Assembly: GCF_039542385.1 (NCBI RefSeq)
Contig: NZ_BAABIA010000002.1
Location: 310,001 to 374,000, forward strand
Length of the DNA stretch: 64,000 nucleotides
Direction of reading: 5' to 3'
DNA from: Prosthecobacter algae
GTDB taxonomy: Bacteria > Verrucomicrobiota > Verrucomicrobiia > Verrucomicrobiales > Verrucomicrobiaceae
In this document: piece by piece, positions 26,463-45,583 of the stretch
How positions within the stretch are numbered: position 1 is the first letter of the stretch
How the letters are laid out: the number at the start of each line of letters is the position of its first letter
Notes under the pieces: generated by a model
Databases searched by the model: none
What the model was told of the DNA's origin: nothing
Seen by the model: only the letters and a program-made list of their open reading frames with translations
Program-made: the position numbers and the translations under genes

Positions 26463-29400
26463 CTAACGGCGACGGCGGAAAAACAGGAAGGCCACGCCGA
26501 CCACCAGCAGCAGCACGCGGCTGGGTTCTGGAACGACCGCGATGACCAGCACGCCGTGGCTGTTGAAGAGGCCCGTGTCCCAGCGCAAGTGAGGATAAGC
26601 GGAGAGATCGGGAAGATTGAGATCGCCATTGTCATCGCCGTTGCCCACCAGATAACGGCTGGATCCGGCATCGAAGCTGCCCCAATCGGCGACACCATAC
26701 CAATCCAGCAAATTGTAAACATTGCCTGCGCTGGGGATGAACCCTGTATCGGTAGGAAGGACCTCGATGCGGCCTCCATTCCAGGTCAGGCCACCGCCAA
26801 TTTCGAGGTGATCGTGCGCAGCCGATACAATGGCGGTGCTGCTGGGGACAGTCTGCCCGAAGTAGTCTGGGAAGGCGCTGGAGGAAGGATTGATCCAGGG
26901 CAGCAAAGAGATGTAGTCCTCATACTCAAAGCCACCGATGACAAAATTTCCGGCAGCGAGCTCCGAATCCAGAAGCGTGGCTCCCAGCACCTGCATGGAA
27001 AGAATGGCTCCCGGATTCAGGACCAGGTCGCCACCATTGCCATCGCCCACAAAAAGAGTCCCCCTCCCTACCCCGACCACTGTCAGCACCGAATCCCCCG
27101 GGGCCAGAGTGCCATGAACCGTGAGCCCGCCGCGCACATGCCCCGTGCCGCTGAGCGTGGCACCAGCCATGACGGTCGTCATGCCTGTTCCAGTGCTGCC
27201 TGCGATCCGCCCGCTGGTGCTCGTGAGGGCGGTGAATGCATTGGTGCTTCCCTGGCTGACGAAACCCCATTCGCCCGTACCGCCCTGCCCTACCTGCAGC
27301 GTGCCAGCGGAGACGGTGGTGGTGCCCGTGTAATCATTGAAGATGGTCAGAGTGGCGGCACCTGTGCCGAGTTTTTCAATGCTCAGGGAGCCTGGCGTCG
27401 CGGCGCTTTTTTCATACTGAGCTGAAGGCACTCCATCACGGAAATAGACATCCCAGGCGGTGTCCCCATTTTGGACAATGCGCAGGGTGCCTGGTGTGGT
27501 GGAGGCATTTTCGACGATGGCCGAACTGTTGCCGACCGGAGTGTAGTTGGCCGTGCCGGTGGCTCCGTGCAATGTCCCCGAAGCCGGATCCACATTGGCA
27601 TTGATGGCAGCCAGATCCGCCGTGGTCTGGCGGGTGGGATCCCAGGTAGGACTGGTGAATGAATACAGCCCGGAGGTGCTGGCACCGTCATTCGAAATGA
27701 GGCCGCCGATCGTTAGCCCCTGGCCGCCTGTCTGAAAGGTGCTCAAATTGCGCATCTCCACCATGTTGGCCGAGGTGAGCGCCGTGGCAGAGCCTGCGCG
27801 GAAGATCTCATTGTCGTCGCGGTCGAAGTTGTTGGTACCAACCCCCTGCTCTGCCCCGATGGTGACCCTGCCGGTGAAGTCGCTGTTGTCGCCTGCAAAG
27901 AGAAAGGTCACAAACTGGTCATAAGGATCGCTGTTCGCGCTGCCGTCTTCCGTATTGTCCAGCATGAGGTTGTTGGAGCCGCTGAGATTGCCCCGGAAAT
28001 TCATGAGCACATGCTGCTGATGTCCCACCACGGCAGCATTGTAGGCGGTGGAGTCCTCATAGTAGAAGCGCACATGATTGGGCGAAAGGGCCCCGCCGCC
28101 GCCCGTGCTGCCGGAACCCAGGTAGATGTCGCCCGTGAAGTCCAGGGTGGATTCTGGGGCGTAGCTACCGGCGATGCGCACTTCCTGGTTGATGTTATCG
28201 CGCACACTGAAATCGCGAGGGATGAGGTAAGTCTGGCGCCCGCTGTCCACAGCCGTGTCACTGTTGCCATATCTGGCCTGCACACGATACTGCACAGTCG
28301 AGGTGGAGACTCCTGTGGGATCGCCTAACAAGATATTCCCCGTACTCTCGAGAGACGCCCCGGGATACATGAGTTGAAGAGTCAGCCCTTCGCGCAGATC
28401 CAGGTCACCGGTCCACTGGGTCATGCTGTTGTAAAGATACAGCGAGCCTGCGCCTGTTTTAACAATGTTGCCCGCGCCCGTGAGGCCACCTTCATTCGGA
28501 TTGAAATAAAACTCCCGGTTGCCCGTGCCGCTGCCGGGGAGAAGCGCATTTTGAGTGCGGATGTTCAGGTCCCCCACGAGGTTGTAAAAACCGTCCATAA
28601 CGATCTGACGACGGGTGGTGTGATTGAGGTAGATCTGGTCACCCGCCTGTTCGCCGAACTGCATCCACTCACGGTAGCGCACCTGGTCCGTCCCTGCGGG
28701 AGAACCTTCCTGAGGCGAAAATTCGATGGTCACATTGTTCTTCACAATGGTGCCATCCGTCCAGGAGTCCGTGCTGCCAAAGGGCGTGTGCTGGGTGTTG
28801 TTCGCACCACCGCCCTGGAGGTCCACCCGCAGGGAGTTGACTCCATCGCCCAGGATGGTCAGGCCCGTGTAAGTATTGGCCACCCCCACCAGGGTGGCAC
28901 CATCGGTGCGTGAACCGAACTGGACCGTTCCAGCCCCCTCAATACGCAGGCCTCCGCTGTTGGGATTGCCACTGAGGCTGGCCACCGGATTGGCCTCCGA
29001 GGAAATGACGCCCCGAAATACCAGCACTTTGTCTTCATCTACCACTCTTACGGTGCCATCGCCGCTGCCCAGCACCACGTTGGCGGAGTAAGTATCAGTC
29101 CCGGTGCCGGTCAGGCTCACTGTTCCACCATTGAGGTTCAGCGGGCCGGTGCCGAGACGGCTGATGCCATCCATGGTCAGTGTGGACGCACCAGTGACAA
29201 AGGTGCTGCCGCTGTAGCTGTTGCTGCCCGTGAGGACCGTCTCGCCGATGCCAGTGAAGACCACATTTTGACTACCCGTGATATTGCCGGCCAAGGTCAC
29301 AGGTGCTGAGGCATAGTTGTGCAGGATCAGATCCCGACCAGCGGCGGTGATGACACCCACCCCAGAGGCGATGGCCACACCGCCAGCGTAGTTGCTGGTG

Positions 29401-32400
29401 AAAAGCAGTCCCCCATCATTCACCGTCAGACTGCCACTGGTGAAGGCTGCGCCGGGGGTGTTAAACCGCACCGATTCCGTGACGCCAGCGACCATCGAGG
29501 AACCCTGGAGGTCCGTGTGCAAGCCAGCCCCGAGAGAATCATTGGCGTAACCGGCAAAGGCCACTACCTGACCCGAAGCATTCACCGAGGCCCAGTCGGT
29601 GGCAAAAGGCTGGCTGTCCGCAGCCGAACCAAAAGTAGCGTAAGAACCCAGGCGGGTTCCTTCAGCCACATCGCCCAACCGGATGCTGCCGCCTGCGATG
29701 CCCTGCAAATGAAGAGCCCCCCCACTGCTGCGGGTGCCCAAAGCAGCAATGTCAAGCTGGCCCGCCCCGATGGCCGCCAAGGCCGAACCACCTGCGCGGA
29801 TCTGCAAGGTGCCAAAGTTTTCCTGCCCACCGTCCACAGCCAAGGTGCCTCCACCCAGGAGCAGGCTGGCATTCAGCCCCACACGGCGGCCGGGTGCTGC
29901 ATCATAGCCTTCCAGCAGCAACAGCCCGCCCAGCACATTCACTCCTTCGACGGAGCCCGCCCCGGCGGTTGAGCCTTGCAGATTCACCTGCCCGGCCCCG
30001 ATTTTGGTGATCGAGGTATTGACCGGATTGGCCGCCGTGCCGCCATCCACTAGATTTGCGCGAATGCTGACTTCACCCCCAGGGGCGGCATAGAGCCGCA
30101 GATCCCTGTCGGCCAAGGTCGTGTAAGGGGTGAACCGGAGTGTGCCTGTGCCCGTGCCAAAGACGACTTCTCCCGAGCGGTTTTCACCGCCGATGGTGGA
30201 GTTGCCAGTGGTGTTGCCCAGCCCCCAGTTGCCGTGGCCAAAGATGTTGCCTGAGTCTGTGATGTCCCCGCCGACAGTCCACGAAGAGAGATTGAAAACC
30301 GAACCTTCATTGGCCAGCACGAAAGTGGCATTGGAGGTCGTGAGACCATCCGCCGTACCACTGGCGATGAGGCCGCGCCCACCTATGTGGAAACCGGACA
30401 TGGCATTGTCCGGGTTCAATGCTGCCGCTGCACCGGTGGTGTAAAAATCCCCCGAGCCGGAGTAGCGCAAGTAGCCACGCTTGAGGATGATCTGGCCCGC
30501 AGAATCATAAGGCTGCCAGAGCTGAACATTGGCCTCATTGGTGGTGGCGATGACTTCCATGCGCAGCACTTGGTTCTGATTGGCCGCAGTGACGGGTGCC
30601 CCGATGGCCCCCGAGGCATTATCACGGATCTGCCCCCGGAAATCGAGAATGCCGGCAGCCCCGGTGTAAGTGGTGAAAATACGGGACTCTGTGGCCTGCA
30701 CGCCTGCGGCAAGAAGACCGGCCCCGCCATAAATGTCGCCCTCGACAGTACCAATGTTGGTCGAGTTCACCAAGACACGCGGGATGAAGCTGCGTGTGTA
30801 GCCCGTGGCTCCGGCGCTGTCCACGTTGTCAAAGACGATGTTTCCACCCCAGGTGCCGCCCTGCTCAATCGACAAGGCGATGTTGTTCCCGCTGATGGTG
30901 CCCACACGGATGTCAGCTCCATAAACACTTGCCCCATGGCTGAGATAAAAATTGCCGCCGCCGGTCACATTCACGCTGTCACTCTGGCCGAGGGCAAAGT
31001 CACTGCGCGCATAGAGCGAGCCATGGTTCACATGGGTGGCCCCGGAATAAGTGTTGTAGCCAGTCAGTATGAGAGCGCCTGGACCGGTCTTGACCAAGCC
31101 ATTGGAGTTGGTGATGCCTGAGGCGATGGTCAGGGTGGTATTGTCACCGTCAATGCCCTCATACCCCTTCGGCTGGCCTGCCGTATCATATCGGGTGAAA
31201 AAGCCGCCCACATAAATGTGCGCTTCCTGCCCGGCGAAATCGAGTTCACCGCCGTTGATCTGGGAACGGATGTCGAGATTCGAGTTGCCGCTGTTGGTGA
31301 TGCCCATGCGGTCCAGCACACCAAAGTTAGCCGCCTGAATCATACCCGAAGCGACGGTGAGCTTGGTGTCATCCCGCATCTGCAACGTGGTGTGGTCTCC
31401 ACCCTGGGTCGCGGCAGAGGTGGGGTTCGCAGCCCCGTTCTGCACGTAGGTTTCAGAGTTGAAACTGAGTGAGTTCACCGTTTTCGAGGCATTGAGCGTT
31501 AACAGTGAATTTTGCCGGGTGGCACCGAACTGCCCAGACTGAAGCGAATCCGAATCACGACCCACAATTCGCAGATTCTGATCATTAGTTAGGCCCTGGT
31601 CATCCAGTGATACTGTGGTGGTGACGGCACCGTCTGGATTTGCCAACGTCTTGTATTCGGACAGCTCCAGCGGACGCAGAAAATGATTGCCGTTGCCATC
31701 GCTGTCCAACGTCACCAGCCTGAACGAGGTGTAGGATTCGTCAAAGCGCTGAGTCACACCATCCGAAGAGGCGACGAGCAGATCGCGGGTGCCGCCGAAG
31801 AAACCAGGAACAACAGGCGCATTGCCATTGAGGCCATTGCCCGTGCCAATGGCAAGGGGAGCCACATCCACCCGCAGGACAGCCTTGTCCGTGACATTGC
31901 CGCTGAAGAAATCACGTCCTGCAAAGGTCGTTCCTGAATCCAGATTCCGCAGATGTACCGAAGCCCCGGGCTGACGAACGATCTCCGTGAAATGCCAGCC
32001 CGCATAATCGCCCTGCAGACGGTTCGCGGTGACACCCGAGGTGGTTAGGTAGTCGGCACCCAGGTTGTACTCCAGCCCCAGCACCCCGGCCTGCGCCGTG
32101 AGGATGCCCGCTTTCTCAAAACCGGAATGGACGCCGCCTGTTGCATCCATGCGCAGGCGAATGTAGCCATCGGCGGTGATGGGCAGATTGTCTGGAAGAC
32201 GATCCCGGAATTCATCAATCGAGGTGCCGCCGGTGGACAGGTAGAAGATCGAATTGCGGTCCAGCCCCATACGCGTCAAACCACCCACGCTGCCGGCGCC
32301 GATGAGTCGCGATGTACCGCTGGCGGAAAGAAAAGCCCCAGTCCACTCAGGGGTGTTGCCATAGAGCCGCAGTTCACCGTTGCCGATGCGGGTGATGTTG

Positions 32401-35400
32401 CCCGTGCCAAACATGTCGCCACCGCCATTGTTGAGGTAGATGCTATGCGAGTTGAAGATCTTCAGCAGGGCATCCTCTTCGACATGGATTTGTCCCGTGA
32501 GGTTGTATGCACGACCCGTACCTGTAACCATGGAACGGATGGTGCCGCCGCCTTCGAAACCGCTGCCTCGCAGGGTCAGCCATTCGGCAATGGTGGGATC
32601 TGACGAAGTAAAGAACAGGTCCAGGCTCCCGTTCCCACCGATGACCGTGCTGTCGAGGAAGGAGCGGTGAGTGCCCAGAGCACCAGTGACCCCGGTGCTG
32701 CCTACCCCTTGCAAGCTGAGGACGCCGTCATTGATCCAGGTGATGCCGCCATAGGCATGGCCCATATTGGCAGGGGTGGAGCCATCCCCCAAAGGCGCAT
32801 ACCGAAACACCACCGTACCGCCACCATTGATGGTGAGATCTCCAATATCCGGATTCCGAACAGAGGAGGCCTCCCAAGGAGTGCCCAGGCTGTCTGAGAG
32901 GGTGTAACCATTGTCGGTATCTACAAGATTGTAATCACCGCTGATGAAACCATCGAAGGTCAGCACCTTGTTCGGATCCACACGCAGGGTGCCACCATTC
33001 CCACCGAGGAAAATGGTGCGACCGCTGTTGAGTTTTAGACTTTCGGTGACATGCAAAGTGCCCCCATTGAAGTGCAAATTTCCGCTATCAAGGATAGCCC
33101 ATGCCCCTGCATTATTACCCGCGGGAGTGCCGTCTAGAGTGACAAGTACGCCACTGGTGTAGCCGCTGCCCCCGTTAGTGACATTGATCGCACTGACGGT
33201 ACTCGTGCCCGTATTGAAGGTGACTATGGCACCACTGCCATTGCCGCCTAGCAACGAAGCAGCGGCACCAGTCTGGCTACCGGTGTAGCTGCTGCCCGCA
33301 TTAATGAGCACTACCCGTGAGATGGAGCCATTGACCTGACCAAGCTGGGAGTCGCTGCTGATCTGAAGCACCCCATTGTTTAGGTAGACGTTGCCTGTCA
33401 TTGTATTGTCTGCCGTCAGCACCGTGGTGCCGCTGCCTGCGTGGACGAGGTTCACCTTATTCGCCCCATCATTGGCAATGACTGAGCCGATGGTCATTAC
33501 CCCCTGGCCATAGTTATAAAGCATTAGATCATTGGAGCCTTGAGCCCAGGTGCTGGTGAGGCTGCCCCCCTGAATGCTGACACTGCCCGCGAGCGTCGCA
33601 GGCACCAGCAAACCTCCCTGGGACAAAGACAATGTACTCCCCGCCCCGATATCGAGCTGACCCGCAGCCCCAAAACGCAATGTCTGGCTCTCCGTGCTGC
33701 CTGAAAGGGCCATGCTGGCGGTAAGATTAGTGTGATTGGCCGCACCGAATGAGTCGTTCGTGTAGGCAGCAAAGGCCTGTACCCCAGTTGTCGCCTGCCG
33801 CCCCGCCCAGTCCGTGACACCGCTGGCGGTGCTGCCATAAACGGCCCAGCCGCCGATGAAAGCCCCAGCCGTGGTGCTCAGATCGGTGGCACTGATGTTG
33901 ATCGCTCCATTGCCATTTTCCATAAAGGCCAACGATGAGCCTGAGTCACGCCTCAGCACACGGGTAGCCGCACCCAGGGTCAGGGTTGTATTCTGCTGGG
34001 TAGTGGCGGAGCTCGCACCCTTCATTAGGTAGATGTTTCCATCCACAGTTTGGGTTCGCATGGCCGTGCCCACAGGCTGTTCCAGCACCAGGTTTCCTCC
34101 GCCCCAGGTGGTGATAGAGGCAAGGGCATTGGTGCCAGTGGTGCGTGTGCGGGCAAACTGGTTATCTCCGTTCATACCGCTCCAGACGGCAGTTCCTGCC
34201 ATGAAGTTCCAGCGGTCCACATTGGAGTTCCCCACCGCATTCCGATTGAAGACCACCGTCCCAGGACCCACGAGAGAAACGGAGGCATTGAAGCTGTCCG
34301 CCGTGGTGTTGCTATCCTCCAGCCGGGCATTGACCACCAGCGTGCCGCCGCGCACCTGAAGGAAGCGGAGGTCTCTCTCCGTATTGGAGTTCTGAAAGAG
34401 AATCCGGTAAGAAAGGCTGTTGTCGGCACTGCCTATGTAGGCCGTTCCGCTGGTGTGCTCGCCGCCCAGGGTGAGCGTGTGGTTGCGGTTGTTGTTGCTG
34501 ATGTTGATGCGGTCCGCGTAGTTCAGCACCTGATCTGCCCGAGTCAGCAGGACATGGCCATGATAAACGTTGGTGGCGGAATTGGCTACGCCGAGAGAGT
34601 TCTGCGGACCACCTAACCACATTTGATTCCAAGTGTTGTCTTGGGTGATTGCCGCCAGCGCATCGCTGGTCTGAAAGCCTGTGCCGTCCAGGCCGGTTGC
34701 GGCAGGATCATACTGGATGCGGAAGTATCCCTGGGTGGCAAAGATCGATCCCGTGGCATCCCATTGCTGGAAGACATTGACGTTCATCTCGTCGTGCCCA
34801 CGCATCTGAAAGACCAGTGAGTGGTTGCGGTCCAGCCGGGTCGCATTGTCACCTGTGGCACCCACATTGGCCAGGGAACCAGCCTCCGTGTCGCGAAACT
34901 GGCCACGGAAATTCAAAGTGGCACTTTCTCCGATAGAGGTGGAAATGACCGTTGGGTCGTTCCACGTGTCATTGTCGGACATGTTCTGATTGTTGGCGGT
35001 GTAGAGATTGCCATAGAGAGTCAGCGTGCCGTTATTGCGGGCGGTGATCACGTGGGTTTGGAATTCCCCAGAGCCGGATTCATCTGCGAGGTCGAAAATG
35101 ACATCACCTCCCCAGGTGCTGTGCGAGGCCCCTTCGTTGCGGAGAACAGTGCGGGTGGTGTCAAACGTGTTGGAAACGCGCAGGTTCACACCGCTGATGT
35201 TGGTGCCATACTCGAGGTAAAAATTGCCCGCACCACCCACCACCACTTCGCGGCCTTCCGCGCCAGCCCCCAGGGCACCCGGATGGCGTACCAGCAGGCC
35301 CCCTTGCTCGCTCACATAGACATTGCCAGAGAACTGGTTCCAAGTGTCCAGGTAGAGGTTATTGCGCCCCGTTTTCACCAGGTCGGTGGCGTTGATAATG

Positions 35401-38195
35401 TTGCTGCGCAGGAAGGCATTGCTGCCCGGCATGAAGGTGCCGAAGGAACCGCTATTGGCATCCAGATCATGACGAGAAAGGGCGGAATTGATGATGGCCG
35501 CCTGACCGTTCATGCTGATGCTACCGCCACGGATCACGGCCTCAGGGTTGGTGTTTACAGATTCGATGAAGGAGGTGAAATTGATGATGCCTGAATTGAT
35601 GGTGAGCGTGCGCCCTGGCTCAATGATGAGGTAGTCACGGGCGGCCACAGGCACAGCCTGCCCTGAGGTGCTTGCATTGAACCCGATGGTCAGGGAATTG
35701 ACCATCACATCCTGGGTCACATTCCGGTTGGCATAGTTATTGCGGCCCCCGGCGCTTTCCGGATCAATGTAGCGGTCTAACAACCAGTTTGTCCCAGCCA
35801 CCGGAGTGCCGCCCACGCTGTACTCACTGGCTGTCAGAGGCCGGAGATAGCCGTTATCCAACGTCATCAGCCCGAGGCCAGAGCCACCGAAGGCGTAGGC
35901 ATTTTGGATGGTGTAAGCCGTGCGATTGGCCGCCGCCCCGGTGGCTGCGGCAAAGCTGGCAGGCAGACTGCCGCCGAAAAGCCCTGGGATCACCTGCTGC
36001 GTGCTACTGCCTGGCGCGTTGGCCCCAACCAAAGGCAGTCCGCTTGTATCGTTAAGCTTCAGCCGGTCATCCGCAGCGCCAGTCCCCCAGGTGTGGCTGC
36101 CGTTCAGATTGTAGATTTTGAGGATGCCGCCGTTGCTCTGGGTGAGCGAAGCAAAGCTGCCATCGAACTGGCCACCGGCTCGGGTGTCGAGGTACAAATA
36201 ATTCGTGCCCGCAGTCACTGCCACGTGACCAAAGTTTTCCGTATTGGCCACCGTGACATCCGTTTCCAAGGTCAGGTATCCGTTCCGCAAATTCAGCAGC
36301 CCATTGTCATTAAGACGGTCATTGTTGTTGGCGCTCGCATAGACGGCATTTCCCGAATTGTTCAGCAGGGCCAGCGAGCCCCAGCGGCTGAGGGTGATGG
36401 AATCGGCCTGATTGAGGCTGCCCTGAGGCCCAGCCAGCGAGAGACTAAAGTACTGCGATTCCGCAGCCCCTGTCGGAGAGGTGTTTGTGTATTGCGAAGG
36501 AAGGAAACGCCCGGTGCTTTGTTTGACATGCACGTCACCATTGAAATTGGCATTGTTGCCGGTCAGCCTCAGTTCACGGTTACCTCTTTTGGTAAAGCCA
36601 GTGCCTTCATTGTCACCCGAAGTGTTGTCAATGACTCCCTGAATTTCGGTCAACCCAGGATGATCATAGCTGTCCGTAGCACTGTTATACCCCACCGCCC
36701 CGCCACCCATGCTGAAGATGTTTTCACCCATGCCGCCGCCGACCAAGTTAACAGTCGTCCCTGGCCCGAAGATGTGATCAAAGGTGCGCCCGGTTTCACC
36801 ATTGCCCTCACGGATCAGCGACCCGTAGTTCAGATTGATGGTGATATTGTCATAGGTCTCTACCACCTTTTGGTTAGGAACGTGGGTATTGCCCGTGCCC
36901 CAGTCTGTCCGGAAAATAAGCCGAGCGGCTGTCACGGCATTGCCAGAGAGATCACTCGCGAGACGGTTGGGATTGAAGGGATCCGACGTGCGGCTTCCCT
37001 GCGTGAGGTCCACCCCGTCAAAAGTGCCTTCATAATAGGCCACATTGATGGTCATGCCGTCAATCTGGTTGCCCCGGTCTGTACCGCCAATGAGGGCACC
37101 CCCCAGCAACCCGCCTTTGTTGCGGAACATGACCGCGCCTTCGTGGATGTTGATGGATGAACCCGCCGCATTGCGGATGTCCGCATTTTCAATCACTAGG
37201 TTCGCCGTGCCGATCTTGGTGAGATCATGGCCGCCCAAGTCGAAAACGGCAGCCATTTCTTCATCCCCGGTAGCATTGAGGTAGCGCTTGAGTTCCGTGC
37301 TGGAATAACCGCCCACAGAAGCATCGCCTGAAAGGGTCAGATGCGAAAGAGACGCCGTGCCAGCGGTGTTCACAAGCGCGCCCAGACCGTTCATCCCGGC
37401 GCCAGCGATGATGAAAATCTCCGTGTCATCGGCCTGCACATCATAGTCGCTGTCACGCAGATCCACGCGGCCACCGTTGTTGATGATGACTTCATTGCCC
37501 ACACCGCGTAATCCGGCGGCGCTTGCCCCAAAGTCATTTGAACTTCCACGTGCACCTCCCTCCAGCCTCAGCAAGCCGGAATTCACGACAATCTGCCCGG
37601 CAAAGTCATTCGTATTGTTATTCAGTAACAGATGACGGACGAAGTTCTCCCCATCATTGACGGCGAGGTTCATCATGGCTGTGCCCGTGACACCGCCGGA
37701 TATTTTTCCGGCCAATGTCAGCCCCAGGCTGTTGCCATTGGTATCGGCAATCAAAAAATCTACCGCACTGTTGAGCTGAATGGCCGAGCTGATCGTATCA
37801 TTCCCACTCTTACCTTGCTTGGTGATGAAAGCATTCCCCTCCGAGGCTTGCATCGTCAGCGTGCCACCCGCCAGGGTGAAGGAGTTGCCTCCGCTGAGGT
37901 CTCCTATCCGCAGCCCGCCAAGAGTCACGTTCGTGCCAGCGATGGCGGCATCAATGGTCACCGTGCGGTTTGCAGAGATGTTGTTGATGAGTTCGGCGAC
38001 TTGGTCCATCCCGTTGGGAACAGCCCCTTGCCAGCGCGTAACGTCACTCCAGTTTCCATTGGCCGAGGTGAGATTCCAGGAGCCTGTTGCGGGTGTCGTG
38101 GGATCCAAGGCCCATGCCGATGGAACGAAGGTGCCTAACAAGCTGATGGCCAGCCATAGACGGCGGCAGGAAAGGGTGTGATAAGGTGGATTCAT
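26463..38195 (-). CDS. Giant autotransporter-strand repeat surface protein with PEP-CTERM tail
   Basis: The single frame encodes 3910 residues. A signal peptide is cut near AWA-LD (residue 29). Most of the length is Gly/Asn/Thr-rich beta-helix with repeated autotransporter-associated strand units, such as YNTYSGATHVNHGSLYARSD, SNSYSGSTFVTGASTL, ADNTMTGNVYLNNGVLQISS and FNDYTGTTTVSAGTLQVGQG. There is no C-terminal beta-barrel; the end is VVPEPSRVLLLVVGVAFLFF followed by four arginines, the PEP-CTERM signal cut by an exosortase. It should be exported, trimmed and attached to or released from the envelope, perhaps in matrix or adhesion. No frameshift was seen. Confidence 0.9.
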   Translation of the reverse strand: MNPPYHTLSCRRLWLAISLLGTFVPSAWALDPTTPATGSWNLTSANGNWSDVTRWQGAVPNGMDQVAELINNISANRTVTIDAAIAGTNVTLGGLRIGDLSGGNSFTLAGGTLTMQASEGNAFITKQGKSGNDTISSAIQLNSAVDFLIADTNGNSLGLTLAGKISGGVTGTAMMNLAVNDGENFVRHLLLNNNTNDFAGQIVVNSGLLRLEGGARGSSNDFGASAAGLRGVGNEVIINNGGRVDLRDSDYDVQADDTEIFIIAGAGMNGLGALVNTAGTASLSHLTLSGDASVGGYSSTELKRYLNATGDEEMAAVFDLGGHDLTKIGTANLVIENADIRNAAGSSINIHEGAVMFRNKGGLLGGALIGGTDRGNQIDGMTINVAYYEGTFDGVDLTQGSRTSDPFNPNRLASDLSGNAVTAARLIFRTDWGTGNTHVPNQKVVETYDNITINLNYGSLIREGNGETGRTFDHIFGPGTTVNLVGGGMGENIFSMGGGAVGYNSATDSYDHPGLTEIQGVIDNTSGDNEGTGFTKRGNRELRLTGNNANFNGDVHVKQSTGRFLPSQYTNTSPTGAAESQYFSLSLAGPQGSLNQADSITLSRWGSLALLNNSGNAVYASANNNDRLNDNGLLNLRNGYLTLETDVTVANTENFGHVAVTAGTNYLYLDTRAGGQFDGSFASLTQSNGGILKIYNLNGSHTWGTGAADDRLKLNDTSGLPLVGANAPGSSTQQVIPGLFGGSLPASFAAATGAAANRTAYTIQNAYAFGGSGLGLMTLDNGYLRPLTASEYSVGGTPVAGTNWLLDRYIDPESAGGRNNYANRNVTQDVMVNSLTIGFNASTSGQAVPVAARDYLIIEPGRTLTINSGIINFTSFIESVNTNPEAVIRGGSISMNGQAAIINSALSRHDLDANSGSFGTFMPGSNAFLRSNIINATDLVKTGRNNLYLDTWNQFSGNVYVSEQGGLLVRHPGALGAGAEGREVVVGGAGNFYLEYGTNISGVNLRVSNTFDTTRTVLRNEGASHSTWGGDVIFDLADESGSGEFQTHVITARNNGTLTLYGNLYTANNQNMSDNDTWNDPTVISTSIGESATLNFRGQFRDTEAGSLANVGATGDNATRLDRNHSLVFQMRGHDEMNVNVFQQWDATGSIFATQGYFRIQYDPAATGLDGTGFQTSDALAAITQDNTWNQMWLGGPQNSLGVANSATNVYHGHVLLTRADQVLNYADRINISNNNRNHTLTLGGEHTSGTAYIGSADNSLSYRILFQNSNTERDLRFLQVRGGTLVVNARLEDSNTTADSFNASVSLVGPGTVVFNRNAVGNSNVDRWNFMAGTAVWSGMNGDNQFARTRTTGTNALASITTWGGGNLVLEQPVGTAMRTQTVDGNIYLMKGASSATTQQNTTLTLGAATRVLRRDSGSSLAFMENGNGAINISATDLSTTAGAFIGGWAVYGSTASGVTDWAGRQATTGVQAFAAYTNDSFGAANHTNLTASMALSGSTESQTLRFGAAGQLDIGAGSTLSLSQGGLLVPATLAGSVSIQGGSLTSTWAQGSNDLMLYNYGQGVMTIGSVIANDGANKVNLVHAGSGTTVLTADNTMTGNVYLNNGVLQISSDSQLGQVNGSISRVVLINAGSSYTGSQTGAAASLLGGNGSGAIVTFNTGTSTVSAINVTNGGSGYTSGVLVTLDGTPAGNNAGAWAILDSGNLHFNGGTLHVTESLKLNSGRTIFLGGNGGTLRVDPNKVLTFDGFISGDYNLVDTDNGYTLSDSLGTPWEASSVRNPDIGDLTINGGGTVVFRYAPLGDGSTPANMGHAYGGITWINDGVLSLQGVGSTGVTGALGTHRSFLDSTVIGGNGSLDLFFTSSDPTIAEWLTLRGSGFEGGGTIRSMVTGTGRAYNLTGQIHVEEDALLKIFNSHSIYLNNGGGDMFGTGNITRIGNGELRLYGNTPEWTGAFLSASGTSRLIGAGSVGGLTRMGLDRNSIFYLSTGGTSIDEFRDRLPDNLPITADGYIRLRMDATGGVHSGFEKAGILTAQAGVLGLEYNLGADYLTTSGVTANRLQGDYAGWHFTEIVRQPGASVHLRNLDSGTTFAGRDFFSGNVTDKAVLRVDVAPLAIGTGNGLNGNAPVVPGFFGGTRDLLVASSDGVTQRFDESYTSFRLVTLDSDGNGNHFLRPLELSEYKTLANPDGAVTTTVSLDDQGLTNDQNLRIVGRDSDSLQSGQFGATRQNSLLTLNASKTVNSLSFNSETYVQNGAANPTSAATQGGDHTTLQMRDDTKLTVASGMIQAANFGVLDRMGITNSGNSNLDIRSQINGGELDFAGQEAHIYVGGFFTRYDTAGQPKGYEGIDGDNTTLTIASGITNSNGLVKTGPGALILTGYNTYSGATHVNHGSLYARSDFALGQSDSVNVTGGGNFYLSHGASVYGADIRVGTISGNNIALSIEQGGTWGGNIVFDNVDSAGATGYTRSFIPRVLVNSTNIGTVEGDIYGGAGLLAAGVQATESRIFTTYTGAAGILDFRGQIRDNASGAIGAPVTAANQNQVLRMEVIATTNEANVQLWQPYDSAGQIILKRGYLRYSGSGDFYTTGAAAALNPDNAMSGFHIGGRGLIASGTADGLTTSNATFVLANEGSVFNLSSWTVGGDITDSGNIFGHGNWGLGNTTGNSTIGGENRSGEVVFGTGTGTLRFTPYTTLADRDLRLYAAPGGEVSIRANLVDGGTAANPVNTSITKIGAGQVNLQGSTAGAGSVEGVNVLGGLLLLEGYDAAPGRRVGLNASLLLGGGTLAVDGGQENFGTLQIRAGGSALAAIGAGQLDIAALGTRSSGGALHLQGIAGGSIRLGDVAEGTRLGSYATFGSAADSQPFATDWASVNASGQVVAFAGYANDSLGAGLHTDLQGSSMVAGVTESVRFNTPGAAFTSGSLTVNDGGLLFTSNYAGGVAIASGVGVITAAGRDLILHNYASAPVTLAGNITGSQNVVFTGIGETVLTGSNSYSGSTFVTGASTLTMDGISRLGTGPLNLNGGTVSLTGTGTDTYSANVVLGSGDGTVRVVDEDKVLVFRGVISSEANPVASLSGNPNSGGLRIEGAGTVQFGSRTDGATLVGVANTYTGLTILGDGVNSLRVDLQGGGANNTQHTPFGSTDSWTDGTIVKNNVTIEFSPQEGSPAGTDQVRYREWMQFGEQAGDQIYLNHTTRRQIVMDGFYNLVGDLNIRTQNALLPGSGTGNREFYFNPNEGGLTGAGNIVKTGAGSLYLYNSMTQWTGDLDLREGLTLQLMYPGASLESTGNILLGDPTGVSTSTVQYRVQARYGNSDTAVDSGRQTYLIPRDFSVRDNINQEVRIAGSYAPESTLDFTGDIYLGSGSTGGGGALSPNHVRFYYEDSTAYNAAVVGHQQHVLMNFRGNLSGSNNLMLDNTEDGSANSDPYDQFVTFLFAGDNSDFTGRVTIGAEQGVGTNNFDRDDNEIFRAGSATALTSANMVEMRNLSTFQTGGQGLTIGGLISNDGASTSGLYSFTSPTWDPTRQTTADLAAINANVDPASGTLHGATGTANYTPVGNSSAIVENASTTPGTLRIVQNGDTAWDVYFRDGVPSAQYEKSAATPGSLSIEKLGTGAATLTIFNDYTGTTTVSAGTLQVGQGGTGEWGFVSQGSTNAFTALTSTSGRIAGSTGTGMTTVMAGATLSGTGHVRGGLTVHGTLAPGDSVLTVVGVGRGTLFVGDGNGGDLVLNPGAILSMQVLGATLLDSELAAGNFVIGGFEYEDYISLLPWINPSSSAFPDYFGQTVPSSTAIVSAAHDHLEIGGGLTWNGGRIEVLPTDTGFIPSAGNVYNLLDWYGVADWGSFDAGSSRYLVGNGDDNGDLNLPDLSAYPHLRWDTGLFNSHGVLVIAVVPEPSRVLLLVVGVAFLFFRRRR

Positions 38196-41497: not shown

Positions 41498-42178
41498 ATG
41501 AGTTTCGATACCCTGGCACCCCACTATCACTGGATGGAATGGTTGTTTGCCGGGAAGGAACTCCAGCGTTGCCGCACCGCCTTTCTACCCATGCTGCATC
41601 CCCCTGCCAACGCCCTGATTTTAGGTGAGGGTGACGGGCGCTTCCTGCTTGAGTACCGTCGCGCCTTTCCTTACGCGAGGGCGACGGTGGTGGACTCCAG
41701 CGCAGGCATGCTGCAGCGGACACTCAAACGGCTCGCGCAGGCCGGGTTCGCACATTCCGGCATCACTTTTGTGCAGGCCGATGCGAGGGAATGGCAACCT
41801 CCCGAAGCCACCTTTGACCTCATCGTCACCTGCTTTTTTCTGGACTGCTTTCGTGAGGAAGAGCTGCGCAGCCTCATCGTGAAAATGGCCCGGGCCGCCA
41901 CCCCCAATGCCCAGTGGTTGCAGGCAGATTTCCAGGTGACAGGCCCACCGCTGAGCCGATTCCGCTCGTGGCTGACGTTGCGACTCCTGTATGCTTTCTT
42001 CCGCAAGGCCACAGGCATCACCGCCTCCGCTATCACCCAGCCAGACCCCATGCTCTGCCGCGAGGGTTTTGTGTGCCGTCAGCGCAGCGTCAGCGACTGG
42101 GGCAGGCTGTACAGCGATTGGTGGGCCCGCCCCACGGAGGCTGCCAGTCTCTCGGACAAAAGCCCCGGCATTTTTTAA
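41498..42178 (+). CDS. Class I SAM-dependent methyltransferase
   Basis: I chose the ATG at 41498 (MSFDTLAPHYHWMEW) over one at 41483, because this opening is typical of small-molecule methyltransferases. The ~226-residue protein has SAM-binding motif I (ALILGEGDGRFLLEY), an acidic end of strand 2 (ATVVDSSAGML), and motif III (QADAREW) followed by the LIVTCFFLDCF post-motif. The acceptor is unknown. It lies behind the MarR-type operator and is followed 8 bases later by the HPP-family gene. Confidence 0.83.
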   Translation: MSFDTLAPHYHWMEWLFAGKELQRCRTAFLPMLHPPANALILGEGDGRFLLEYRRAFPYARATVVDSSAGMLQRTLKRLAQAGFAHSGITFVQADAREWQPPEATFDLIVTCFFLDCFREEELRSLIVKMARAATPNAQWLQADFQVTGPPLSRFRSWLTLRLLYAFFRKATGITASAITQPDPMLCREGFVCRQRSVSDWGRLYSDWWARPTEAASLSDKSPGIF

Positions 42179-42185
42179 ACGCCCT

Positions 42186-42902
42186 ATGGAATCATGGAAA
42201 GAAAAGCTCGGCATTGAACTCAGCGCCGTCAGTTACAAGGAAAAGCTCATTTCCACCGCGGGTGGGATCCTCTCGATCTTCCTCCTCATCCTGCTGGTTC
42301 AGCACGGGCTGGATGGCACGGACGGCAGTCTGGTGGTGGCCTCCATGGGAGCCACGGCGGTGCTGCTTTTCGCCGTGCCTCACGGCCAGCTCTCCCAGCC
42401 GTGGCCCGTTATCGCGGGCCATGGACTGTCCGCACTCGTCGGTGTTCTCTGCGCACGATACATTCCTCATCAGGCGGTCGCAGGTGCCTGCGCGGTGGGC
42501 CTGGCCATCGGGGTAATGCACCAGTTCAAATGCATCCATCCACCCGGAGGAGCCACGGCCTTGATGGCGGTCATTGGCGGCCCCGGCATTCGTGATCTGG
42601 GCTTTGGCTTTGTGCTGTTTCCCATTCTCACCAATGCCCTCATGATGGTTGGCTTGGCCGTCCTGCTGAACCTCTGCTTCCGCTGGCGGCGCTACCCAGC
42701 CTTTTTGACCCATCGTCCCCGGCGACCCAAAGGGGCCAAGCCGGAGCCGACCCATGAAGAAATCGTGGCTGCGCTCCGCAGCCTGGACTCGTTTGTGGAC
42801 ATCACCGAGGACGACCTCATACGCCTCTGTGAACTGCTGTCCGTCCCTCAAAAGACAGCGCCAAAGAGAACGCCTGAAAAGAGGCAGGCGGCTCTCACCT
42901 AA
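42186..42902 (+). CDS. HPP family membrane protein (possible nitrite transporter)
   Basis: The ATG at 42186 (MESWKEKLGIELSAVSYKEK) begins a 238-residue protein with about four helices and the family signature CIHPPGGATALMAVIGG. HPP proteins in cyanobacteria and chloroplasts carry nitrite; bacterial members are mostly uncharacterised. A soluble tail of about 60 residues follows (THEEIVAALRSLDSFVDITED). It follows the methyltransferase and precedes a region with truncated globins and an NsrR-type regulator, which fits a nitrogen-oxide role, but this is inference. Confidence 0.78.
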   Translation: MESWKEKLGIELSAVSYKEKLISTAGGILSIFLLILLVQHGLDGTDGSLVVASMGATAVLLFAVPHGQLSQPWPVIAGHGLSALVGVLCARYIPHQAVAGACAVGLAIGVMHQFKCIHPPGGATALMAVIGGPGIRDLGFGFVLFPILTNALMMVGLAVLLNLCFRWRRYPAFLTHRPRRPKGAKPEPTHEEIVAALRSLDSFVDITEDDLIRLCELLSVPQKTAPKRTPEKRQAALT

Positions 42903-43639: not shown

Positions 43640-43897
43640 ATGTCCAAAATTCATTATTACGACCGCGTACGCCTACGCTCCCTCAATGCCATCGAATCCT
43701 CCGAGGATGATGACCTTTTCATCCAGATCGTCTATCCTCATGAGGCCAATGCCGTCGCCGGCCGCATCTCTGCCGATGCCCCCGTGGGCAGGGCCGCCCT
43801 GCACCGGAAAGAGGGCGACACCATCACCTTCAAGGCCCAAGGCCAGCGCATGGCCATGCAGATCATCAGCATTGAAAAGCACGCCCTGACTGCCTGA
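43640..43897 (+). CDS. GreA/GreB C-terminal-domain protein (Rnk-like)
   Basis: The 85-residue protein consists only of the C-terminal FKBP-like domain of GreA/GreB: YDRVRLRSLNAIESSEDDDLFIQIVYPHEA, then ISADAPVGRAALHRKEGDTI and an IISIEKH ending. It lacks the coiled coil that reaches the RNA polymerase active site, as in Rnk and other stand-alone regulators, which bind the secondary channel region. It may tune transcription under stress. A 12-bp hairpin follows. Confidence 0.78.
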   Translation: MSKIHYYDRVRLRSLNAIESSEDDDLFIQIVYPHEANAVAGRISADAPVGRAALHRKEGDTITFKAQGQRMAMQIISIEKHALTA

Positions 43898-43972: not shown

Positions 43973-44548
43973 TCAGGGCTTGGCAGACTGTGGCCGGTTC
44001 AGCACTGCATCGCGGGTACTGCCGACGATGGCCATCGCCTGGGCAATGAGCGCAGGATCCACCTTGAGCTCCTGAAGCGTGGCCTGCAAATGCTCGGCAA
44101 TGGCATCAAAATGGGTGTCATTGAGACCGTCCAGGTCGGCATGTGCCGTGCGCAGATCCTTGCCCACATACGGGTTTGGCCCGCCAAGTGCAGCGGCCAG
44201 AAACTCCTTCTGCTTCCGCTTCTGCTTGATCATGCTGATGTCTTCGAAGTAGTGGTTCACCCGTTTGTCGGCCAGCACCTTCACATAGAAAAGCTCCACT
44301 GCCGCCTCAAGCGCCGCCTTGCCTCCCAGCTTTTGATAAAGGCTGGCCGCACGGTCTGCTTCGAATTTCTGGCGGCTGGCTTCGTCGGCGAAGGCGAAGG
44401 TCTGATCTTCATAAACCCAGGTGATCTTCGGATCTGCCGCCTTGCCACTGACCGGGCAGGTGGTGTTGAGCGGCTTGGGGGCAACGGGCTCCGCGGCAAA
44501 GACTGTGAGGCAAAGGCCGAAGGAGAACAGGAGGACTGCTTTTTTCAT
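43973..44548 (-). CDS. Exported YHS-like / truncated haemoglobin (group I) fusion
   Basis: The 191-residue protein has a signal peptide (MKKAVLLFSFGLCLTVFAAEP), a YHS-like module (about residues 28-68: TCPVSGKAADP...TFAFADEASRQKFEAD) that lacks the second cysteine pair, and a group I truncated globin (about 70-170: SLYQKLGGKAALEAAVELFY...GPNPYVGKDLRTAHADL). The His in RTAH is the expected proximal heme ligand. Truncated globins bind O2 or NO; most are cytoplasmic, so an exported one fused to a metal-domain-like module is unusual. It lies 66 bases downstream of the group III globin gene on the same strand. Confidence 0.8.
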   Translation of the reverse strand: MKKAVLLFSFGLCLTVFAAEPVAPKPLNTTCPVSGKAADPKITWVYEDQTFAFADEASRQKFEADRAASLYQKLGGKAALEAAVELFYVKVLADKRVNHYFEDISMIKQKRKQKEFLAAALGGPNPYVGKDLRTAHADLDGLNDTHFDAIAEHLQATLQELKVDPALIAQAMAIVGSTRDAVLNRPQSAKP

Positions 44549-44614: not shown

Positions 44615-45079
44615 TCAGCTCTGACCGGCAGCGGCATAACGAGCACGCTGTTCTGGAGTCAGCCCGACAGGGTGGGCGCTATGATCTGCATCGGGGTTGA
44701 TCCGGCGATGGATCACCTGAGCCATGTCGGCCGCGCAGTTTTTGATGTGGTCGGCGTTTGGCCCCGAAAACAGGGAGTCCACCGTGCTTTGAAAAATCTG
44801 CAGCCAGCGGTCAAATTGAGGCCTCCCCATCGCAGTCAGCGGCACCAACCGTGCATGCACCGCCAGCGGATTGCCCGTGTAACCGCCGGTGCGAAAAATC
44901 ACCTGCTCCCAAAAGGCGTACATCTTTGGCAGATGCGCAGCCCAGTCCGTATGCGCCACCTCACTGAAAATAAAACCCAGAACATCGTCGCCCCGCACAC
45001 GATCATAAAAGGCATTCACGAGCTGCTCGATTTCGGCACGGCCCTCGAGGTCTGGGAGATGAGAACTTGTGCTTTGCAT
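44615..45079 (-). CDS. Group III truncated haemoglobin
   Basis: The 154-residue protein matches group III truncated globins (Ctb type): EIEQLVNAFYDRVRGDDVLGFIF, HLPKMYAFWEQVIFRTGGYTGNP, and AVHARLVPLTAMGRPQFDRWLQIF with the candidate proximal His in VHARL. It is cytoplasmic. Group III globins in Campylobacter are induced by NO and control oxygen or NO chemistry. A strong palindrome lies 5 bases before its ATG, and an NsrR-type regulator gene is divergent, so NO-responsive repression is likely. Confidence 0.87.
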   Translation of the reverse strand: MQSTSSHLPDLEGRAEIEQLVNAFYDRVRGDDVLGFIFSEVAHTDWAAHLPKMYAFWEQVIFRTGGYTGNPLAVHARLVPLTAMGRPQFDRWLQIFQSTVDSLFSGPNADHIKNCAADMAQVIHRRINPDADHSAHPVGLTPEQRARYAAAGQS

Positions 45080-45084
45080 GTTTT

Positions 45085-45107
45085 AATAGGTATATTAAAT
45101 ACCTATT
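45085..45107. promoter_or_regulatory. NsrR/Rrf2-type operator palindrome
   Basis: The perfect inverted repeat AATAGGTAT-ATTAA-ATACCTATT (9-5-9) also reads as an 11-1-11 palindrome with one mismatched pair, the architecture of NsrR operators. It sits 5 bases upstream of the group III globin ATG and 62 bases upstream of the divergent regulator start. The minus-strand centre TATTTAATAT could include a -10 element, so a bound repressor would block globin transcription. Assignment to the adjacent regulator is inference. Confidence 0.72.
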
Positions 45108-45169: not shown

Positions 45170-45583
45170 TTGCAGCTCACCTACCACACCGACTACGCCC
45201 TCCGGCTGCTCATCTACCTGATGAATCATCCGGATAAAAATGTGACCACCCGGGAGATGGCTGACTTTTATGGCATCTCCCTCAATCACCTCACCAAGGT
45301 GGCCAAAAGGCTGACCCAGGGCGGTTGGCTGAAAACGAGCCGAGGTGCCGGTGGCGGGCTGATGTTGGCCGCTCACACCCCTGGCACCAAGATCGGAGAG
45401 ATTGTTCGCCTGATCGAAAGCGGAGACTTGGTGGAGTGTTTCACTCCCGCGACCAATAGCTGCCCCATCACGCACAATTGCCGCCTCAAGCCCCTGCTCT
45501 ACCAGGCTCGCCGCGCTTTTTATGACGTACTGGATACACAGACGGTCCGGGAACTCGCCTCCCATGAAAGCCTGATTCCCTAG
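45170..45583 (+). CDS. nsrR: Rrf2-family regulator, NsrR-like
   Basis: I place the start at the TTG at 45170 (MQLTYHTDYALRLLIYLMNH after initiation), which gives the standard Rrf2 N-terminus; the frame is open much further upstream but that part is antisense to the globin genes. The 137-residue protein has a winged helix (TTREMADFYGISLNHLTKVAKRL) and three cysteines (ECFTPATNSCPITHNCRLK) as in NsrR, where they hold an Fe-S cluster that senses NO. It is divergent from the globin genes with a palindrome between them. Confidence 0.85.
   Translation: MQLTYHTDYALRLLIYLMNHPDKNVTTREMADFYGISLNHLTKVAKRLTQGGWLKTSRGAGGGLMLAAHTPGTKIGEIVRLIESGDLVECFTPATNSCPITHNCRLKPLLYQARRAFYDVLDTQTVRELASHESLIP

Follow-up and report, generated by a model that had tools for sequence, protein, structure and literature searches.

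A small gene in the window, by which we mean the whole 64,000-nucleotide stretch of Prosthecobacter algae DNA analyzed here, probably encodes an NsrR-linked group I truncated globin that removes nitric oxide (NO) in the periplasm. Removal of NO outside the cytoplasm is considered probable because the protein carries an export-like leader and adjoins a gene switch of the NO-sensing type. In the proposed mechanism, the exported globin would take up NO in the periplasm and probably oxidize it (NO + bound O2 -> nitrate), and NO reaching the cytoplasm would disable the adjacent Fe-S repressor, an NsrR-like Rrf2 protein. With the repressor disabled, the operon that encodes the exported globin together with a cytoplasmic group III globin would be derepressed, and both compartments would thereby be defended against NO. 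The short YHS module that precedes the globin would be the remnant of a small YHS protein that was itself exported, with its metal cysteines eroding and its leader retained. The coordinates of the relevant features are collected in Table 1.

Table 1. Features of the globin locus (positions are those of the window)
Feature	Coordinates	Strand	Basis
Gene for the putatively exported YHS-globin, 191 aa	43973..44548	-	ORF, PF01152 match, class-wide relatives
Signal-peptide-like leader, residues 1-18, proposed cleavage after A18	44495..44548	-	sequence; crude signal rule in relatives
Degenerate YHS module (residues 28-68) with a single cysteine, C31	44345..44467	-	profile match to standalone YHS-like proteins; Pfam YHS in related modules
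Group I truncated globin domain, residues 69-185	43994..44344	-	PF01152; 1dly sequence and structure matches
H136 codon (candidate for the proximal F8 ligand of heme)	44141..44143	-	aligned with His of 1dly RTAH; invariant in 17/17
Group III truncated globin, first gene of a probable operon of two genes (66-bp gap)	44615..45079	-	best PDB match 2ig3
Palindrome TAGGTAT-N5-ATACCTA, proposed operator	45087..45105	.	between the group III globin and Rrf2 genes
Divergent NsrR-like regulator of the Rrf2 family, its TTG start inferred by alignment	45170..45583	+	PF02082, NCBIfam, PDB
HPP-family membrane protein, true start probably further in	41991..42902	+	PF04982, E = 3.4e-47

The gene is as the initial annotation gave it, an ATG-initiated frame in the ORF list and its translation, and its globin domain is an intact, complete group I truncated globin. 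Residues 69-183 of the window protein match PF01152 in a Pfam search (E = 5.8e-19; 68.9 bits, cut-off 21), and its best PDB relative is 1dly, the Chlamydomonas group I globin (E = 6.5e-33). The AlphaFold2 model, built from 17 sequences with a mean pLDDT of 87.2, superposes on 1dly with Z 22.7 and an rmsd of 0.8 over 120 residues; by sequence and by model, the protein has the 2-on-2 globin fold with PF01152 and is closest to group I. The group I residue set is present, namely H136, which we take to be the F8 proximal heme ligand, and Y88, Q109 and Q113, presumably TyrB10 and Gln E7/E11 of the distal pocket. These four and F101 are invariant in 17/17 aligned relatives, which upholds the earlier description of an otherwise normal globin with a candidate proximal His. 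The spacing of Y88, Q109 and Q113 (21 and 4) equals that of Y25, Q46 and Q50 in the titles of Tetrahymena mutants. Fold and heme-pocket residues are thus common to the window globin and the group I truncated globins 1dly and M. tuberculosis HbN (1idr), and the exported globin would be expected to bind heme; where 1dly and HbN have a short pre-A segment, the window globin instead has an N-terminal leader and the YHS module.

The leader, MKKAVLLFSFGLCLTVFA followed by AEP, resembles a Sec-type signal peptide with an inferred cleavage site, and residues 1-20 have low pLDDT in the AlphaFold2 model. A crude leader rule (K/R near the start plus a hydrophobic stretch, rather than a trained predictor) is passed by 67/72 relatives, compared with 1/9 unfused (plain) globins; two genes with no clean in-frame leader (L067, L182) and one with a broken frame (L189) lie outside these 72 relatives, inside the set of 34 more distant loci described below. 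The failure of 5/72 relatives would fit a reading in which the leader serves as an uncleaved anchor or the globin remains in the cytoplasm. This reading we regard as very unlikely, since small residues before AE/AD recur even as the leader sequence and its hydrophobic core vary among relatives, and one relative, L187, carries a lipoprotein-like leader in place of the usual one. Sec export of the window globin is the predicted route, and the reading of the N-terminus as a signal peptide, on which the initial annotation had staked its case, withstood the comparison with relatives, which conserve the same kind of leader. That annotation described truncated globins as normally cytoplasmic and this one as carrying a signal peptide; periplasmic truncated globins, in the form of globin-pentaheme cytochrome fusions, have already been proposed for cable bacteria.

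The YHS homology of the module was likewise confirmed, by way of its relatives. The window protein has no Pfam YHS match at E<=1, and its module alone has none at E<=0.01. Among 38 related modules, 22 match PF04945 at E<=0.01 (best 1e-8), and one fused relative, L168, exceeds the PF04945 cut-off (32.6 vs 30.3 bits). When the module family was aligned by hhalign to standalone YHS-like proteins, themselves chosen by BLAST with the query, the score was 80.4 (Prob 99.1), and none of 40 column shuffles scored above 14.7. These profile comparisons establish the module's homology to YHS domains. Its NTxCPVxGKP start recurs in small standalone proteins that the same bacteria appear to export (L075, L079 and L085 are above the Pfam YHS cut-off, L083 below it). 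Proteins such as L075 and L085 have the leader and the NTxCPVxGKP...YEG...F....C...F module in common with the window protein, and differ from it in that they stand alone with intact cysteines and no globin, whereas the window module is fused and its cysteines are eroded. In the model, the window module forms a hairpin-helix (pLDDT 86.8); Foldseek gave no match to it at E<=0.001, and the best VIA match, 3rng_A (Z 4.6, rmsd 1.8, 38 residues), is too weak to bear on a treble-clef-like fold. Four standalone exported proteins (L080, L081, L082, L086) contain two YHS-like units, the second of which reads FADAAS, a degeneration of the same kind as that of the window module.

As had been noted from the sequence, the second cysteine group of the window module is gone, with FADEAS in the position of FCCNNC in L075, a standalone relative, and the first pair is reduced to C31. 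The cysteine set, which presumably provides the metal ligands of YHS domains, is thus incomplete in the window copy. Cysteine classes were assigned by pattern in the 72 relatives, a procedure that mislabels L187 as single since its Cys sits in the leader: 7 have the first Cys and FC..C, 46 are two-part, 11 have a single Cys, 2 have no Cys, and 6 have no module. The fullest set belongs to L171 (CAVC...FCCGKC). The leader passes the crude rule in 5/6 of the module-less relatives, which form one clade (98/98) within a clade of 21 (99/98) in a tree of 67 rows and 124 columns, few columns for that many rows. As these six keep the leader and form a single clade inside module-bearing rows, the module, unlike the leader, can be dispensed with. 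Estimated from 6 orthologues with pS near saturation, pN/pS is 0.14 for the globin, 0.30 for the module and 0.53 for the leader plus linker; among these orthologues of the window gene the module, too, remains constrained. This purifying selection, the invariance of C31 in 17/17 aligned relatives, and the 7/72 relatives that retain the first Cys and FC..C might suggest a metal-globin enzyme in which the module still performs metal or thiol chemistry and the window copy has merely diverged. We find such activity quite improbable, given that the cysteines are lost piecemeal, with two relatives lacking them altogether and six lacking the module. Since the leader is near-universal while the YHS cysteines range from the full set to none and one clade has the leader without the module, predicted export, not YHS chemistry, is the conserved trait of the family. 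The leader may have come with the ancestral YHS protein.

A search for the same domain order, proposed with the initial annotation, revealed a class-wide family instead of a lone oddity. There are 45 full-length genes in 35/68 genomes of the window's family, matches in 63/386 genomes of its order at E<=1e-20 (some globin-only), and matches in 15/384 genomes of its class, one of them to a globin-PAS-type protein and another to a broken frame. In the phylum sample, 14/387 genomes match at E<=1e-10, and the module occurs there only in the window's family. Full-length cases were found in ten families (f1, f2, f9, f81, f82, f109, f111, f127, f133, f135), with an additional broken frame in f99; the matches observed outside the phylum are globin-only. 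Relatives in family, order and class rule out a fusion unique to the window, and the order and class searches overturned an early reading of the phylum sample, by which the fusion was confined to the window's family. Of 38 plasmid records with a match, none covers 80% of the query, and no description of a truncated hemoglobin fused to a YHS domain was found in the open-licence literature. In the first tree, the fused rows require two changes, which is compatible with one origin; a single move from cytoplasm to periplasm is not shown by the larger tree (67 rows, 124 columns), in which five plain globins lie among module-bearing rows. One ~820-aa open frame (L112, G400:C47, about 256.8-257.3 kb) combines a group I globin with PAS and chemotaxis-receptor-like parts.

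The group III globin gene (best PDB match 2ig3, E = 6.5e-11) precedes the YHS-globin gene on the minus strand, and the two probably form a two-gene operon. The divergent regulator matches PF02082 (E = 9.5e-29), has NsrR as its best NCBIfam model (103.4 bits, under the cut-off of 182), and has NsrR 5n07 as its best PDB chain (E = 1.5e-17) with three Cys aligned; five Rrf2 genes are present in the 6.12 Mb of the genome. Repression of the operon by this adjacent Rrf2 protein is what the arrangement suggests. The candidate operator, TAGGTATATTAAATACCTA, is retained with changes in six near relatives and has no other exact copy in the genome, and its four one-mismatch sites equal the number for the control. 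Against the published NsrR operator consensus (gATGyAT-N5-ATrCATc, PMC1274295), it scores 10/14, a score that 15.9% of background windows reach or exceed. Relatives of the window's HPP protein are reported to move nitrite. A small standalone GreA/GreB C-terminal domain (Rnk-like, 43640-43897) lies beside the globin locus and is kept in near relatives.

Within 5 kb in 49 relatives' loci, a group III globin was found in 25, NnrS in 17, Rrf2 in 16, HPP in 11 and any of these in 35; the remaining 14, some with short flanks, have none of the four within that distance. Among 34 more distant loci, 20 have a linked gene (Rrf2 18, HPP 2, NirK 2, NnrS 1, group III globin 1), one of the NirK genes (L165) being only 38% identical and possibly another copper oxidase. 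Pfam annotation of these neighbors covered chosen genes only, and since the loci are related, the counts of linked genes and of sites are not independent. NnrS, reported to belong to NO-responsive regulons, occurs about once per genome. At least 12/14 of the NsrR consensus is matched in 30/45 distinct upstream regions, compared with 1/2105 background windows from the same loci, and one region (L006) matches at 14/14; this enrichment rests on the published consensus and background windows, not on mononucleotide shuffles with a partly window-derived consensus. In the 34 further loci, where a differently placed stretch was scanned, 6 reach 12/14 against 2/887 background windows. None of the seven loci of the subclade to which the window belongs has a globin-gene upstream region that reaches 12/14. 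Of five Rrf2 proteins tested, two have RirA as their best-scoring model. The initial annotation had correctly placed a group III globin next to the exported one, but regulation of the NsrR type and the neighborhood of nitrite and NO genes had escaped it. At L137, L116, L129 and other NnrS loci, GATGCAT-N5-ATGCAAC, which departs asymmetrically from the NsrR consensus, occurs in several upstream regions with no Rrf2 gene within 5 kb.

A source of NO is encoded nearby in some of these bacteria. NirK, the copper nitrite reductase, works in the periplasm, and its gene lies within 2.2 kb in 5/49 loci, where it runs in the direction of the group III globin gene and against that of the YHS-globin gene. 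NirK is above cut-off in 15/68 genomes, and 11 of these 15 have the fused globin, a modest excess over 35/68 overall. In the window's own genome, a second island places a YHS-globin paralogue 14 kb from a group III globin-NirK-NnrS group; the NirK of this island has a cytochrome c domain, and besides NnrS the group includes an outer-membrane protein and an SCO1-like protein. A subunit of the heme-copper oxidase family (subtype not assigned) is encoded nearby. Searches for cytochrome c nitrite reductase (PF02335) returned short, weak matches only. Between NirK and NnrS at another locus (L149:2760-4046), a single protein combines FGE-sulfatase and SCO1/SenC domains.

The exported globins also differ from plain ones in their partners. 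Four plain globins, the nearest ones tested (L023, L145, L114, L113), are each followed by a 2Fe-2S/FAD reductase, and an annotated plasmid globin in L146, outside these four, has no reductase neighbor. No such reductase gene was found in any of 83 exported-type loci, some with short flanks. The exported globin must therefore get electrons elsewhere, perhaps from a c-type cytochrome, or act once per reduction, and multiple turnover is not assured. The closest known counterpart is the NsrR-controlled glbN-reductase operon of another bacterium, which, as Rodionov 2005 (PMC1274295) and Gardner 2012 (PMC3820574) present it, likewise joins a group I truncated globin to an NsrR-type repressor with a proposed role in NO oxidation. 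By the same accounts GlbN is cytoplasmic and paired with a ferredoxin reductase, whereas the Verrucomicrobial globin comes with a leader and a YHS module but no reductase gene.

Other functions were considered for an exported globin of this kind. With no reductase at hand, it could be a periplasmic heme sensor or carrier, binding NO or nitrite, signaling, or reducing nitrite to NO, instead of a detoxifier, and the NirK linkage would suit a sensor too. We rate this as unlikely, because the N-terminal parts of the 72 aligned relatives contain no fused signaling domain and the adjacent regulator is already NO-sensing by type. An oxygen function, in which the globin would bind, store or reduce O2 at the periplasmic side and not handle NO, agrees with the retention of the group I distal pocket residues and has a precedent in the periplasmic O2 reduction proposed in print for the globin-cytochrome fusions of cable bacteria. 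Those fusions resemble the window globin in the inferred periplasmic placement of a truncated globin; they have a fused cytochrome and would serve O2 respiration, whereas the window globin has no multiheme cytochrome fused and its linked genes and upstream sites indicate NO and nitrite, which makes the oxygen function improbable. NO dioxygenation is the activity proposed here for the exported globin.

A more specific version of NO removal can be put forward as a speculation held at low confidence. The globin may be a reductase-free periplasmic NO dioxygenase, operating beside a NirK with fused cytochrome c, drawing electrons from periplasmic c-type cytochromes in place of a flavin reductase and using the YHS remnant as a docking surface. 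If true, such an enzyme would give denitrification in Verrucomicrobia a built-in safety valve. NO defense by globins has been described as cytoplasmic and reductase-dependent; with a class-wide set of apparently exported, NsrR-linked and reductase-less globins, periplasmic NO destruction at the site of nitrite reductase, together with its electron source, becomes directly testable. The stepwise disappearance of the YHS cysteines behind a retained leader would also show, in legible form, how a domain can shrink to a remnant that serves delivery.

Elsewhere in the window, a 3910-aa ORF (26463-38195) has autotransporter-like repeats and a PEP-CTERM-like tail, both labeled by eye.
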